Part shown: positions 2,310-18,949 of the stretch, piece after piece
How positions within the stretch are numbered: the first letter of the stretch is position 1
Layout: every line of letters begins with the position of its first letter
IMG/VR virus record: IMGVR_UViG_3300010885_042296
Span: 1 to 25,639 of that record
Strand: one strand, 5' to 3'
DNA from: a virus
Length of the DNA stretch: 25,639 nt
Position numbers and translations under genes: made by a program
Notes under the pieces: generated by a model
The model's input: only the letters and a program-made list of their open reading frames with translations
What the model was told of the DNA's origin: nothing
The model's database searches: none

Positions 2310-3536
2310 TCATACCGTCCACCCTTGAATAACCGCGTCCGCTTGGCGCGTGGGGAGGTAGAAAATGCGGTGAACGAGGCCGTTCATTGGCCGAACACCG
2401 TCAAATCTGTTGCCAATGTGTAGGGTCGTGATTGTCGGCATAGTGTCGGCACTTACGAGTGCGGAAAACGCATTTCCATTTGCCGCTGACGTTACGCCAG
2501 AAGCATCAGCGCCATGTGCAAACTTGTTTATTGCGTTTACTGGTGTTTGACCGCCTATTCCGCCAGATGTTCTAGTAACCCCCGAAACAAGCTGGGCAAC
2601 TGTTGACGTGGTTGTTCCGTTAAAAATTAATTCATTAAGGTTAGCAGTGGTCCCGTTTGACGCTGAAAAAGGCCGCTGGCCAGCCGAAGTTCCGTCAAAA
2701 CTCAAAAATTCCGCATACCAAGACCCCGCACTTGCCGAATACCATCCCGTCGTGGGCAGGCTCAGAACGTCCGCGTTGCGGGGTACTGCGGCGGTCGTCG
2801 TGGCGACGTATGAGGTTGCGAATGAACCTTGTTCAACTTGAGCGCCCCACGCGAACACTGCTTCGCCGGTTGAAAATGTGCTCGCGCCACCAATCTGTGC
2901 CGAAATCAGCGTTGTTAACGCAGAAGTTGTTCGCGTGACTGTGAACCGCTGCCAAGACGTGGTTACGCTACACGATACATTCGTGTTGCCACTGCCGCCG
3001 CCACCGTCAATGATGAATAAACTAACCGTTTGCGGGCTTGCTGCTCGCATATACACTGAAAAAGTGTACGCAGTCGCAGCGGTCGCCGTTATATTCGGCT
3101 GCGTGCAATTGCTATCTGCGGCCAAGGCGGTCAAAAGATCTGCAGTAGCCGTCCCGTCCGGTGCAGTTGTCGCGCCCGTTGTAACCGTAACTGTTCCGCC
3201 CGAACCCCAGGGAGCAGTTGCAAATGCTTGTGACCGCAACGCTAAATTTGTCCGCGCTTCCTCTGCCAGATACCCTAGCCGCGTTGTCAGGCCGGGCACG
3301 GTCCCGATGCGCGGCACGCCGGCTGCGGCGGTCTGTAGCGTCCCCGCGCTGTCAAAGTACGTTGCAGACGTGGCGCGCGTGTAAGTGCCGCCGAGGGCCG
3401 CAACCAGCGCGGGGATTCCTGAATATGTGGAGGAATTGACCCCGTATGCGTTTGCGACAGCATTGAAATTAAAGGTCGCAGACCCAGAACGGCCCGACCG
3501 CCTGAACCCCGCGAACAGGCCCATCCCGCGCGTCAT
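2310..3536 (-). CDS. Virion spike/fiber-like protein with jelly-roll domains
   Basis: This 408-aa protein starts at ATG 3536, which overlaps the upstream stop (ATGA). An upstream in-frame extension exists but would run through the neighbouring gene. The middle contains a 'TYTRATSATYFDSAGTLQTA...VPRIG' segment and 'LGYLAEEARTN', the signature of phage head-spike or tail proteins with carbohydrate-binding-like beta-sandwich domains. Long Ser/Thr/Gly-rich stretches and a LamG-like C-terminal half (GLVHRIFYLPTRQ) follow. Codon use is clearly AT-richer than in neighbouring genes (for example around 2610-2720), suggesting recent acquisition. A role in surface decoration or receptor binding is inferred from the motif class. 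Confidence 0.6.
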   Translation of the reverse strand: MTRGMGLFAGFRRSGRSGSATFNFNAVANAYGVNSSTYSGIPALVAALGGTYTRATSATYFDSAGTLQTAAAGVPRIGTVPGLTTRLGYLAEEARTNLALRSQAFATAPWGSGGTVTVTTGATTAPDGTATADLLTALAADSNCTQPNITATAATAYTFSVYMRAASPQTVSLFIIDGGGGSGNTNVSCSVTTSWQRFTVTRTTSALTTLISAQIGGASTFSTGEAVFAWGAQVEQGSFATSYVATTTAAVPRNADVLSLPTTGWYSASAGSWYAEFLSFDGTSAGQRPFSASNGTTANLNELIFNGTTTSTVAQLVSGVTRTSGGIGGQTPVNAINKFAHGADASGVTSAANGNAFSALVSADTMPTITTLHIGNRFDGVRPMNGLVHRIFYLPTRQADAVIQGWTV

Positions 3537-15598: not shown

Positions 15599-17010
15599 TC
15601 CGCAGCCTCCGCAACCACGTTGGAACCGATCGCGCAGAACAGCCGCACCGTCCCGGTCTTGCCCTGCCGCAGCTTCAAGCTCTCCACGTCGAGGCGCTGC
15701 TGCGCGTTCAAAAGGCGCTCCTCCTCGACCTCCGTGCGGTCGCGCTTGCGCTCGAGGTAGTAGGCCTCCCGGAACAGGCCCAGCACGATGTCGGCGTCCT
15801 GCTCGATCGATCCCGAGTCGCGCAGATCGCCCAGGGTTGGCCGCTTGTCGTCACGGCCCTCGACGCCTCGGTTCAACTGCGACAGCGCCAGCACGGGAAC
15901 GCCAAGCTCCTTGGCAAGCACCTTGAGCCCGCCGGAGAGTTCGGAGACCTCCTGCACCCTGTTTCCTGCATAGCGGCTGGAGGGCCGCACAAGGCCCATG
16001 TGGTCGATGACGACCAGCCCGAGGGGTTGCCCCTTGCGCTCTGCGGAAACCGCCACCCTGCGCGCCCTCGCTGCGATCTGCGACAGCGTCAGCCCGGCCT
16101 GCTGCTCGATCTCGAAAGGCATCGCATCCATGCGCGAGCGCGCGCGACGAAGCCGCTCGACGGAGGCCTCAGCCATCCCGCGTGCATCCGCGATGTCGCG
16201 GTAGGTGATCACGTCCCCGCGCTCGCCGAAGACAAGGGCCGACAGCGCACGCTGGGCGAGTTCCTGGTCGACCATCTCGAGCGACACGAAATGGACCGCC
16301 CGGCCGCGCCTGGCGACGTTCAGGGCGATCTGCAGCCCGAAGGCCGTCTTGCCCATGCCGGGCCTGCCAGCAGCGACGATCAGCTGCCCGGGCTTCATCC
16401 CCTGCGTCATGCGGTCGAGCGATGGGATGCCCCACGCGACCCTGTCGACTTTCCCGCCGGCCCGCACCCGCTCCAGTTCGTCGATGACCCTGCCGGAGGC
16501 CTCTGCCAGCCCCGTGCGCGCCATCTGCCCGCCGCCGGAGGTCACCACCTCGTCGAGGGCCTCAATGGCCTTGGCAGCGACGGCATGGGGCTTGCCGACC
16601 GCCTCCTGATCAATCGACGCCAGGATGTCTCGCGCCACGTCCACGCAACGCCGCAGATCCGCGTGCCGGCGAACCTCCTTGGCGTAGGTCGTCACCAGCC
16701 CCGGGACGACGGCATTGGCGACGAGATTCGCGACGTATTCGTGCAGCGTGATGCCGCCGAGATCCCGGTCCCCAATCGCCTGGGTCACTAGCCGCGTGTC
16801 GATCGCGTTGTTCTCGTCGCGCGCCGCGATCATGCACTCCCAGATCGCGCGATGGATCGGCTCGCAGATGTCCTGCGCGTCCACGACAGCCCGGGCCCGG
16901 TCGATGAGTTCCGGCGACAGCAGCGCGGTGCCGATCAGCGCCTGCTCGGCCTGCACAGCCTGCAGCCGCAGATCCAGCGCAATGTCTTGTGGCGCCGTCA
17001 TCGCGGTCAC
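15595..17010 (-). CDS. dnaB: Replicative DNA helicase, DnaB family
   Basis: This 471-aa protein has the two-domain DnaB plan. The N-terminal domain (residues about 12-115) reads 'AEQALIGTALLSPELID' and 'IHRAIWECMIA'. The RecA-like ATPase has Walker A GRPGMGKT at 215-222, Walker B 'LGLVVIDHMGLV' near 330, and the H4 region 'ALSQLNRGVEGRDDKRPTLGDLRDSGSIEQDADIV' near 370-405. It unwinds DNA at the phage replication fork. GTG 17010 overlaps the methyltransferase stop (GTGA); ATG 17001 is the alternative and has a better spacing (11 nt) to GGAGG. Confidence 0.93.
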   Translation of the reverse strand: MTAMTAPQDIALDLRLQAVQAEQALIGTALLSPELIDRARAVVDAQDICEPIHRAIWECMIAARDENNAIDTRLVTQAIGDRDLGGITLHEYVANLVANAVVPGLVTTYAKEVRRHADLRRCVDVARDILASIDQEAVGKPHAVAAKAIEALDEVVTSGGGQMARTGLAEASGRVIDELERVRAGGKVDRVAWGIPSLDRMTQGMKPGQLIVAAGRPGMGKTAFGLQIALNVARRGRAVHFVSLEMVDQELAQRALSALVFGERGDVITYRDIADARGMAEASVERLRRARSRMDAMPFEIEQQAGLTLSQIAARARRVAVSAERKGQPLGLVVIDHMGLVRPSSRYAGNRVQEVSELSGGLKVLAKELGVPVLALSQLNRGVEGRDDKRPTLGDLRDSGSIEQDADIVLGLFREAYYLERKRDRTEVEEERLLNAQQRLDVESLKLRQGKTGTVRLFCAIGSNVVAEAAE

Positions 17011-18623
17011 GGCACGGCCTCCATGAATGCCGCGATCACTTCGGCCGCGACTTGCGGGACGATGGCATTGCCGAGGGCGCGCAATTTACCCACTCGGGCG
17101 GGTATCCCATGAGCCAGCAGACGAACTCCGGGTTCAGCGCGCCGCGCTTTCCCGTCCGCTCCGGTGAGCCAGACGTGGTCGGACCAGTGGGTTCCGTTGC
17201 GGCCACCTGTCGGGGAAGCTGATCGACCCTGTTGCGGATCGACCCGTCCGGGTTCACCCCGGTCGTCGCCATGCCCGGCCCGTCCTTCCAGTCGCGCGCC
17301 GAGGGTGTCACCCACGTCGACTGTGCGGCTTGAGCCGGCAACGGCGTCCCGCCCGCTCCGAACGCCATGTTCGGGCCGCCCTTCTCCCCGTCCGACGCCC
17401 GCGGCGTGCTCCACGTCGACGCCAGCGCATGCTCTCTGATCGCCACCAGCCCCGCCGAGTTCCCGGCCTCGTTGTTCCCGGCCTCGTTGTTCCCGTCCTT
17501 CGCGTGCGCCAGACTGGTCGGCGTCGGCCACGTCTGCAACGGCGATCCAGTAGAGACGGCTTCTGATGTGCGGGGCGTCGACGGAACATGCTGCCACACT
17601 TGCCGTCCGGCAGGAGTAACCCGCCGTTTCCAAGTCATCGACAACTCCGTCGAGCCAATTGCGCTCAGGCGAGTCATCAAGTTGGCCTCCCATTTGTCCA
17701 ACACCGTCGCCTCGGCCCGCTGCTTGGCCTGTAAAGCCTCCACCACCTCCAGCACCTTCTCCTCGCCCCATGAGTTCATCATCACGTTGAGCGAAAACAG
17801 AACCACCCTCACATTCTCGATCGTGTAGCCGTCCTCCGGATTGATCCTGTCCAGCGACGGGCTGTCCCACGTCTGCCCCCCGTCGAAATTGAACGGGATG
17901 CCTGTCATCTCGCAGACACCGTTCGCCACCCTCTGCTGGATGTGGTCCCGCCAATCGTCCAAGGCGAACGCCAGTCCGGCCTTGGTCGCCCGTGCCTTGG
18001 CCTCTTTGACCAAATAGTGTCCGCGCCTGTTGCTCCGGTATTTCGCTCGGTATTCCCGGTGCATTGCCAAGGTGCGCTCCCTCGACGCCGGATTTTCGCG
18101 GGCTAGCCTCTGTTCCGTCGAGCAACATGTCTTGCAACGAGAGTAACGGCCATCCTTCGCGCCTGACGCCCTTGAGAACATCGACAAGGGCAGAACGGCG
18201 CCGCATCCTCTGCACTGCTTCGTATCTCCTGAATTGTTCGGGGGTCGCCCGACCGGCCGCTGCGGCGACTTGCTCTCCCATGACGACAGTGGGCCGGCAG
18301 GCACGGATGAGGCGATGGAAGTGGGGCCACAGATGCCTTGCATCATCGACACCGGCTCCTTTGCCGGCGACCGAGAACGGCTGACACGGGCAGGAGCCGG
18401 TCCAGATCGGCCGGTCGTCGGGCCATCCGGCGAGGCGCAAGGCTGCACTCCATCCGCCAAGTCCGGCGAAGAAATGGGCTTGCGTGAAGCCGACAAGGTC
18501 GGAAGGTCGAAGATCGACAATTGACCGCTCGCAGACTTCGCCATCAGGGATCAGCCCTTCTCGGATGAGGTTTCGGAGCCATTGCGCGGCGTAGGGGTCG
18601 ATCTCGTTGTAAAAGGCGCTCAC
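17007..18623 (-). CDS. DNA cytosine-5 methyltransferase interrupted by an HNH insert
   Basis: GTG 18623, 4 nt after GGAGG and overlapping the previous stop, opens a 538-codon frame. It contains C5-MTase motif I 'FFAGLGG' (51-57), motif IV 'SCPCQPFS' (77-84, catalytic Cys80), motif VI-like 'GEQV' (116-119), motif VIII 'APHIRSRLYW' (about 350-359) and motif X 'LRALGNAIVPQ' near the C-terminus. Residues about 125-319 fit no MTase: this is the shadow of an HNH domain encoded in another frame. Without it the enzyme would be about 344 aa, the usual phage size. Whether the interrupted enzyme works is unclear. Confidence 0.8.
   Translation of the reverse strand: MSAFYNEIDPYAAQWLRNLIREGLIPDGEVCERSIVDLRPSDLVGFTQAHFFAGLGGWSAALRLAGWPDDRPIWTGSCPCQPFSVAGKGAGVDDARHLWPHFHRLIRACRPTVVMGEQVAAAAGRATPEQFRRYEAVQRMRRRSALVDVLKGVRREGWPLLSLQDMLLDGTEASPRKSGVEGAHLGNAPGIPSEIPEQQARTLFGQRGQGTGDQGRTGVRLGRLAGPHPAEGGERCLRDDRHPVQFRRGADVGQPVAGQDQSGGRLHDRECEGGSVFAQRDDELMGRGEGAGGGGGFTGQAAGRGDGVGQMGGQLDDSPERNWLDGVVDDLETAGYSCRTASVAACSVDAPHIRSRLYWIAVADVADADQSGAREGREQRGREQRGRELGGAGGDQRACAGVDVEHAAGVGRGEGRPEHGVRSGRDAVAGSSRTVDVGDTLGARLEGRAGHGDDRGEPGRVDPQQGRSASPTGGRNGTHWSDHVWLTGADGKARRAEPGVRLLAHGIPARVGKLRALGNAIVPQVAAEVIAAFMEAVP
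17036..18346 (-). CDS. HNH homing-endonuclease ORF in the second frame of the methyltransferase gene
   Basis: A second minus-strand frame stays open from 18544 to 17036. ATG 18346 is 9 nt after AAGGAG and is the best start, giving about 436 aa. Residues about 43-205 are an HNH-type domain: zinc-binding pairs CRGC (45-48) and CKTC (71-74), the helix 'KEAKARATKAGLAF', and the signature 'SPSLDRINPEDGYTIENVRVV' (about 162-182). After the insert the frame continues as 'STELSMTWKRRVTPAGR' and three W-x-TP-x-A/S repeats, ending 'LNPEFVCWLMGYPPEWVNCAPSA'. That tail is the second reading frame seen over many phage C5-methyltransferase genes. Confidence 0.6.
   Translation of the reverse strand: MMQGICGPTSIASSVPAGPLSSWESKSPQRPVGRPPNNSGDTKQCRGCGAVLPLSMFSRASGAKDGRYSRCKTCCSTEQRLARENPASRERTLAMHREYRAKYRSNRRGHYLVKEAKARATKAGLAFALDDWRDHIQQRVANGVCEMTGIPFNFDGGQTWDSPSLDRINPEDGYTIENVRVVLFSLNVMMNSWGEEKVLEVVEALQAKQRAEATVLDKWEANLMTRLSAIGSTELSMTWKRRVTPAGRQVWQHVPSTPRTSEAVSTGSPLQTWPTPTSLAHAKDGNNEAGNNEAGNSAGLVAIREHALASTWSTPRASDGEKGGPNMAFGAGGTPLPAQAAQSTWVTPSARDWKDGPGMATTGVNPDGSIRNRVDQLPRQVAATEPTGPTTSGSPERTGKRGALNPEFVCWLMGYPPEWVNCAPSAMPSSRKSRPK
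17460..17489. repeat. 15-bp tandem repeat inside the methyltransferase gene
   Basis: TTCCCGGCCTCGTTG occurs twice in tandem (17460-17474, 17475-17489), followed by a partial third copy. It encodes REQRG repeats in the methyltransferase frame and NNEAG repeats in the second frame. The 15-bp unit keeps both frames, so copy-number changes would not break either one. Confidence 0.7.
17667..18248 (-). mobile_element. HNH-coding insertion in the methyltransferase gene
   Basis: Comparing both frames with the usual C5-MTase pattern, foreign sequence starts just after 'GEQVAAAAGR' (about 18249) and the MTase resumes at 'ERNWLDGV' (about 17666). The interval is about 582 nt (194 codons) and preserves both reading frames. 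It carries the HNH domain and almost nothing else. There are no intein end motifs, and it is too small to hold a group I intron core besides the ORF. Boundaries are accurate to perhaps 15 nt. Confidence 0.6.
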
Positions 18624-18949
18624 GCGACCTCCAGCGAATCCGCCAGAACCGCAGCGTCCAGCAGCTGCACACCCGCGTCTGTCCGCACCAGCGTCAGGCC
18701 CAGCGGCTCGACCTTCTTCTTCACGCGCGACAGCAGGCTCGTCGGGTAATCGTGAGACCGCTTCATCCACTCCTTGCGCCACTCGCGCCGGAAGATGCGC
18801 TGCATCATCTCCTCGACGGTGAACGCTCGCGGGGAGAGGAACCACGCCAGTTCGAACACGGACATCTCAAAGGCATCGCTGAACTGGATGGTCACGCCAT
18901 CGCGCTCGACGCGGCCTGTCAGGGGGTTGATGCGGATCCCGGCGATCAT
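18620..18949 (-). CDS. Winged-helix DNA-binding protein
   Basis: This 109-aa protein has ATG 18949 overlapping the rusA stop (ATGA). The pattern resembles the OmpR/PhoB C-terminal winged helix without a receiver domain: beta strands 'IRINPLTGRVERDGVTIQF', helix 'SVFELAWFL', helix 'TVEEMMQRIF', recognition helix 'YPTSLLSRVKKKVEPLG' and wing 'LTLVRTDAGVQLL'. Its stop overlaps the methyltransferase GTG, so the two are translationally coupled. It may be a transcription factor of the phage or an accessory DNA-binding protein. Confidence 0.65.
   Translation of the reverse strand: MIAGIRINPLTGRVERDGVTIQFSDAFEMSVFELAWFLSPRAFTVEEMMQRIFRREWRKEWMKRSHDYPTSLLSRVKKKVEPLGLTLVRTDAGVQLLDAAVLADSLEVA

Follow-up and report, generated by a model that had tools for sequence, protein, structure and literature searches.

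How can a gene hold an endonuclease domain in another reading frame and still be read through from end to end? This question is raised by a C5-cytosine methyltransferase gene in a viral DNA record of 25,639 bases (IMG/VR record IMGVR_UViG_3300010885_042296), which is called the window here. Frame A denotes the frame of the methyltransferase and frame B the +1 frame relative to it, in which an HNH-type endonuclease is encoded. A preliminary description of this DNA had proposed that a foreign HNH domain lies in a different frame within the methyltransferase gene and that the host gene can still be read through. This proposal was upheld by matches to the PHROGs database, by two frames that are both open and by an empty site in relatives. 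Moreover, the comparisons presented here indicate that the arrangement is real, recurrent and selected for an open host frame.

Frame A matches phrog_363 'DNA methyltransferase' over residues 1-536 (PHROGs, E 2.8e-67) and the Pfam family PF00145 (5e-14). The stretches which we take to be motifs I, IV, VI, VIII and X follow in this order within this single frame, and the Cys residue of PCQPFS is presumably the catalytic one. The canonical motif VI of C5-methyltransferases is ENV, and GEQV is found in the window. The distance from GEQV to the W of WLDG is 11 codons in 13 insert-free relatives, hand-chosen for printing, vs 207 codons in the window, giving a net insert after motif VI of 196 codons. 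The insert had been described as roughly 582 nucleotides (nt) long; that it is a multiple of three and in frame was confirmed, but its net length is 588 nt. Alignment with uninterrupted phage C5-methyltransferases, as suggested at that stage, fixed the ends of the insert to within a few codons. The row most identical to the window (locus L011; our locus numbers carry an L throughout) shows 81% identity over 160 flanking columns and has no insert, which refutes the view that the stretch is an ordinary variable region of the methyltransferase.

In the +1 frame the insert matches phrog_3322 'endonuclease' (4.8e-28), phrog_1035 'endonuclease VII' (2.5e-26) and phrog_3118 'HNH endonuclease' (3.1e-11). 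By these matches, frame-B residues ~97 to 285 represent a zinc-ribbon/HNH-type endonuclease. The HNH domain had been regarded as a complete unit in a different frame. The different frame was confirmed as +1, but the open reading frame (ORF) in frame B is not bounded by the HNH domain: it is one ORF of 502 amino acids (aa), whose flanks belong to a conserved overlapping ORF.

The evidence for selection comes from stop codons. As null model, the HNH codons were shuffled synonymously, keeping the codon use and the amino acids of each insert. Across the window nuclease, frame A contains no stop vs 4.35 expected (P = 0.003). Over the 15 inserts of this kind that were found in total (14 contigs, window counted), stops in the host frame number 0 vs 81.4 expected, and those in the third frame 83 vs 83.4 expected. 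Fifteen relatives outside the gene have 148 stops in the corresponding frame vs 160.6 expected, and 89 vs 86.1 in the third frame. The host frame is thus open in 15 and closed in 0 copies inside the gene vs 0 and 15 outside (Fisher P 1.3e-8). L010, L035, L097 and L098 are near copies among the inserts, so that these counts are not independent events; without L035, L097 and L098 the number of expected stops is still ~72.5. Natural controls are provided by L207-L209, in which a nuclease of the window's family lies directly downstream of an uninterrupted methyltransferase, with 8, 18 and 2 stops in the corresponding frame. A disabled enzyme, which had also been considered, is disfavoured because none of the 15 inserts has a stop in the host frame; furthermore, the predicted methyltransferase core folds around the insert, in a model that is partly confident.

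The inserts comprise two HNH families (HNH1, that of the window, and HNH2) at two sites (site 1, that of the window, and site 2, directly before motif X), and in all 15 of them the nuclease is in the +1 frame and the host frame is open. They match the phage HNH endonuclease families phrog_1035, phrog_3322 and phrog_1271. In the set of loci collected with frame A, four (L010, L013, L035, L048) carry HNH2 directly before motif X, in frame B and with frame A open. A profile built from these four inserts found 13 loci, 8 of them inside methyltransferase genes. Four of the 13 match by construction (L095 = L013, L099 = L010, L101 = L035, L102 = L048); beyond these profile sources, 4 of 9 loci lie inside methyltransferase genes (L096, L097, L098, L100), and the remaining 5 gave no methyltransferase match in the available flanks. 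For HNH1, a single-protein search of viral contigs yielded no relative, and a seven-sequence HNH alignment was too poorly conserved for searching. A two-sequence alignment (window and L096) worked as HNH1 profile and found 10 loci, of which 6 are at the site of the window (L204, which is L096, and L201, L202, L203, L205, L206); beyond the profile sources these are 5 of 9 loci. Three more of the 10 are L207-L209, and L210 gave no methyltransferase match. Searches with either nuclease profile, which contained no methyltransferase sequence, led back to methyltransferase genes. Both families occur in L096 (78-2192), at two sites of a single gene with an open host frame of 704 aa. The contigs of L035, L097 and L201 contain only part of the gene. 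A sequencing or assembly error is very unlikely because such inserts are present in 14 different contigs.

Some of these loci show further features. In L209 (2662-3360) the HNH gene directly downstream of the intact methyltransferase continues in frame into a second motif-X-like stretch (GNAIVPQVAERFV), and an intact motif X is also present in the methyltransferase gene; this would fit a regeneration of the 3′ end of that gene upstream of the nuclease. The HNH2 insert of L048 (3001-4758) is located in a viral contig with IMG id 2579778678. The format of this id resembles that of an isolate genome, and presumably a cultured host may exist.

The features of the window are collected in Table 1. 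The gene downstream of frame A encodes a DnaB-like helicase, and upstream of it a 109-aa ORF is followed by a RusA resolvase gene.

Table 1. Positions of the methyltransferase (frame A), the overlapping ORF (frame B) and the insert in the window
Feature	Position	Strand	Description and basis
Inserted segment	17658..18251	(-)	~594 nt, net 588 nt vs empty site; in frame for A and B; ends to within a few codons, by comparison
HNH-type endonuclease coding region, frame B	17690..18256	(-)	Zinc ribbon CxxC...CxxC, then CEMTG..PSLDR....GY...N..VV
Frame A, C5-cytosine methyltransferase ORF	17007..18623	(-)	538 aa, GTG start, open; PHROGs and Pfam
GGAGG	18628-18632	(-)	4 nt before frame-A start
A motif I, FAGLGG	18453..18470	(-)	Sequence and invariant columns of alignment
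A motif IV, PCQPFS (within SCPCQPFS)	18372..18389	(-)	Sequence and alignment
A motif VI-like, GEQV	18267..18278	(-)	Directly before insert; sequence and alignment
A motif VIII, APHIRSRLYW	17547..17576	(-)	After insert; sequence and alignment
A motif X, LRALGNAIVP	17055..17084	(-)	After insert; sequence and alignment
Frame B, +1 relative to A	17036..18544	(-)	502-aa ORF: N-terminal part, HNH-type domain, conserved core and C-terminus; phrog_1008, phrog_3322, phrog_1035
B N-terminal part	18257..18544	(-)	Over A motifs I, IV, VI; predicted disordered, weak constraint
B conserved core and C-terminus	17039..17689	(-)	Core LxxRLxxxGST..TWK..TPAGR; C-terminus WPTP repeats, LNPEFVCWLMGYPPEW; over A motifs VIII, X
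AAAGGAG, Shine-Dalgarno-like	18356..18362	(-)	9 nt before frame-B ATG ATG at 18346; candidate internal start for the HNH-type protein, putative function

Frame B extends beyond the nuclease on both sides. Residues 277-493 of the window B match phrog_1008 at 1.8e-18, with the N-terminal flank outside the reported best stretch; B of the uninterrupted loci L015 and L040 matches this family from profile positions 12 and 14. The family is named 'DNA methyltransferase'. In most insert-free relatives the +1 frame stays open to near the end of A. When the A codons of 77 uninterrupted loci were shuffled synonymously, +1 stops numbered 46 vs 260 expected, and stops in the +2 frame 988 vs 948 expected. 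The 77 loci were drawn from 85, of which L009, L027, L031 and L079 were excluded for a frame under 700 nt and L010, L013, L035 and L048 for their HNH inserts. The third-base entropy of fourfold-degenerate A codons was calculated for 75 distinct rows, each 700 nt or longer, using per column only the rows with the commonest first two bases and ignoring relatedness. It is 1.66 bits before B (9 columns), then 1.37, 1.55 and 1.16 bits, and 0.81 bits in codons 121-165, where 7 columns are at 0. Judged by these columns, B is strongly constrained directly behind the insertion site and weakly constrained in its N-terminal part.

The overlap was also found from the other side. When B by itself was used as query, the best 80 of at least 554 loci were kept, and frame A overlaps at -1 in 80 of these 80. 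The frame-A search of viral contigs kept the best 80 of 189 loci; 8 contigs are shared between the two sets, 3 of which were in the B query alignment. In 47 loci with frame B open over the tested region, B-synonymous shuffles gave 172 expected stops vs 0 observed in frame A after about codon 165, a result that is partly by construction, A having been chosen as the open frame. The preliminary description had placed the nuclease in dual-coding DNA, and A and B are indeed both open through the insert.

The two sites differ in how the nuclease is joined to B. At site 1 the B core (LxxRLxxxGST, with small variations) follows directly after HNH with no stop between in 7/7 HNH1 carriers, and the N-terminal part of B is continuous with HNH in 6 of these 7; stops occur in this part in L096. 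At site 2 (L010, L013, L035, L048, L096) B stops, and the nuclease begins after it at an ATG or GTG of its own, which is preceded by a purine-rich stretch. According to this comparison, both nucleases are at the edge of the conserved core of B, yet internal to A. An alternative would be that frame B yields no protein of its own, that its conservation is a by-product and that HNH uses a frame which is open by chance. The N-terminal part, weakly constrained and predicted to be disordered, would agree with this, as would the 35 of 77 loci in which the tested range contains one or more +1 stops (42 have none). We consider this explanation unlikely in view of the large deficit of +1 stops, the invariant fourfold columns in codons 121-165 and the B core regenerated after HNH in all HNH1 carriers.

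What B might be is suggested by gp70 of phage ShiLan, an ordinary C5-methyltransferase (L109, 6344-7510). The B profile aligned with gp70 over WPTP...LNPxFxxWLMGxPxEW (hhalign probability 94, E 9e-8), and gp70 itself matches phrog_1008 over residues 196-388 (2e-61) and phrog_363 over residues 1-385. Thus a region that is in frame between motifs VIII and X of gp70 is read in +1 here, and B may be a displaced target-recognition region, moved to an overlapping frame. No match was found in NCBIfam for B of the window, L012 and L015, in Pfam for the B flanks of the window, or among PDB sequences for the B profile.

The conserved +1 ORF (B, phrog_1008) spans nearly the whole C5-methyltransferase gene in most loci examined (L007-L086, L110-L189), including that of Salmonella phage epsilon15 (L003). 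For Cyanophage Cy-LDV1 (L004, 1748-2302) the public annotation names part of frame B 'methyltransferase', and the table for this region has no gene in the real methyltransferase frame. Two insert-free loci are broken: in L031 (3001-4231) both readings shift by one frame near 3430, and in L027 (from 2731) the methyltransferase frame has a stop after 57 codons.

The explanation which we favour, and which we regard as very probable, is that a homing-type HNH gene lies in frame with the overlapping ORF B and that translation of the methyltransferase runs through it unspliced, adding a mostly disordered loop to the enzyme. On this view, a phage C5-methyltransferase gene that already had two overlapping readings would have been entered by a mobile endonuclease gene of HNH type. 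In frame B the insert reads as an endonuclease, joined to the N-terminal part of B on one side and to its conserved core on the other. Frame A has no stop across the insert, whose ~196 residues would form a mostly disordered loop that separates motif VI from the next helix, and a full-length methyltransferase could still be made without RNA or protein splicing. The nuclease may be translated from the frame-B start at 18544 or from 18346 behind AAAGGAG, would cut the empty allele and spread by homing, and the loop-bearing methyltransferase would keep its activity.

To a wider interpretation we give an even chance. Here the homing endonucleases would make up a class whose members are in frame with both of two overlapping genes. 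The B frame would be their niche, with the nuclease fused before the B core at one site and placed after the B stop at the other, and kept stop-free in A. B would be a second, overprinted protein of the methyltransferase gene; its C-terminus is homologous to the region located between motifs VIII and X in another phage C5 enzyme and read there in frame with them. At site 1 the active form of the nuclease would have the order B-HNH-B within one fused protein.

Ribosomal frameshifting would offer a different route: a +1 slip near GEQV would lead from the methyltransferase into B and yield a methyltransferase-HNH fusion besides the full methyltransferase. Several HNH1 carriers have no Met codon between the N-terminal part of B and the start of the HNH similarity, with frame B continuous, and the position of the strongest constraint on B, directly after the insertion site, would also fit. 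However, no slippery site common to the 13 printed relatives was seen by eye, no systematic search having been made. Moreover, the window has a frame-B ATG behind AAAGGAG, and the HNH2 copies examined have start codons of their own, which makes frameshifting quite unlikely. Removal of the insert, as an intron, intein or translational bypass element that has gone unrecognised, is highly improbable: a single site beside a conserved motif in seven carriers would suit such an element, but no intron was found in an Rfam scan of 16800-18900 (E ≤ 1, a single spurious weak match) and no intein (Hint/splicing) domain in a Pfam scan of frame A to E 1 (PF00145 alone), and a removed RNA or bypassed stretch needs no open host frame. 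The absence of an intein and of a group I intron core, as first described, was therefore borne out within these thresholds.

The distribution of the inserts was examined in a quick tree of the flanking core with 165 rows, 20 of them repeats. L097 and L100 (N-terminal core missing or different) and rows with short or N-terminally cut frames were omitted. The 7 HNH1 carriers need 6 changes, and 6 HNH2 carriers likewise need 6. When HNH1 and HNH2 carriers only are compared, 3 changes each are needed, and shuffles were as low in 119 and 99 of 500. The scattered carriers are consistent with repeated gain or loss, gain and loss not being told apart, and the nuclease gene is probably mobile.

Structures of both products were predicted with AlphaFold2. 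A model of the 538-aa product had been suggested as a check; it shows a core that folds around the insert. Residues 1-80, 101-120 and 521-538 have a predicted local distance difference test (pLDDT) of 85-96, and residues 321-360 of 70-93. Values are low at residues 163-319 and in most of 372-480. The start of the insert is modelled as a helix (128-155, ~60), and the rest (163-319) is almost without secondary structure beyond the helix end. In the frame-B model the N-terminal part is low, the HNH region is mostly at 57-87 and a hairpin (301-322) is near 80.

Several results weigh against our explanation. The frame-A model is only partly confident (mean pLDDT 59, predicted template modelling score (pTM) 0.49), its residues 82-88, the loop after PCQP, are under 50, and in a Foldseek search against PDB its best matches are C5-methyltransferases but weak (M.HaeIII 3.5e-3, none under 0.001). 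The frame-B model has a mean of 57.7 and a pTM of 0.35, residues 214-227 inside the nuclease are under 50, and Foldseek against PDB gave nothing significant. No HNH match to the window insert was found in Pfam, and the identity of the nuclease is derived from the PHROGs names and a weak match to a profile of PacI (E 0.01), a restriction endonuclease that is an HNH enzyme (PMC11855218). The first catalytic His of the classical HNH motif is not evident in the window nuclease (PSLDR); among 14 nuclease rows R, Y, N and N are invariant and the first His is not clear in the alignment. The N-terminal part of B is weakly constrained and its ATG is not universal. Two of the relatives outside the gene are also stop-poor (L104, 4 vs 8.1, P 0.019; L103, 1 vs 3.6, P 0.06). 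Selection at the amino-acid level in frame A was not visible within the inserts, judged by substitutions among three near-identical HNH2 copies, in which the frame-A identity is no clearer than that of the third frame; selection is claimed for openness only. In the tree, 22 of 142 inner branches are strongly supported and many are weak. Finally, the HNH2 search of genome contigs found 11 distant loci and no close copy; 9 of the 11 bear names which we take to be haloarchaeal.

By these data, the hidden HNH genes recently reported from actinophage methylases become a recurrent arrangement that can be recognised by a measurable signature: in the copies examined, the host frame is free of stops only where the nuclease is inside the gene. 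The data illustrate a way in which a selfish nuclease could reside in an expressed gene and need no splicing, with three reading constraints on the same DNA, and point to a conserved overlapping ORF in the phage C5-methyltransferase family.

Endonucleases within host genes are reportedly known from other systems. The endonuclease gene mobE is said to lie within nrdA of phage Aeh1, which is split but retains its function, and fungal rps3 reportedly carries an endonuclease as an in-frame fusion with a regenerated C-terminus, again with function retained; neither is known to be dual-coding across the insert. Six HNH1 relatives from named phage records are ORFs of their own beside other genes, with stops in their other frames about as expected.

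The closest known case is the ShiLan domain, described as a hidden out-of-frame HNH in an actinophage DNA methylase whose own frame stays open (Arsenault, Gosselin and Gogarten 2025, PMC11855218). It has in common with the window an insert in a phage methylase without host-frame stop, an HNH in another frame and a patchy distribution, with no intron or intein detected and an insert predicted to loop out from the enzyme. In our stop test the ShiLan domain gave 0 stops vs 1.81 expected (P 0.037). The hosts differ: in ShiLan it is an N6/N4 methylase (PF01555) with HNH in +2, whereas the window host is a C5 enzyme with HNH in +1. According to its authors, the ShiLan HNH starts at a GTG and ends at a TAA of its own, and a ribosome-binding site is not visible (PMC11855218). 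Unlike this, HNH at site 1 is fused to a conserved overlapping ORF and lacks its own stop. A start and stop of its own inside the insert is found in none of 7 HNH1 carriers at site 1, but at site 2 in L010, L013, L035, L048 and L096. Also unlike ShiLan, the C5 family has two sites, both of them used in one gene (L096). Pacc40 gp60, described by the same authors, has a hidden HNH-like ORF at another methylase position, with free-standing relatives beside uninterrupted methylases as in L207-L209; it is a single case in a different methylase, and its HNH annotation is called less certain there (PMC11855218). Another out-of-frame HNH in a DNA methylase is reported in a further paper (PMC12613952). 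Judged by titles and the openings of abstracts, an overlapping ORF B or an HNH in frame with B is not described in the literature searched. The claim of a new mode of residence, made in the preliminary description, has therefore to be narrowed: out-of-frame HNH genes in phage methylases have been known since 2025, but the fusion to a conserved overlapping host ORF and the two sites set the present case apart. The general kind was published with ShiLan, and the present case is a distinct and better-tested variant of it.

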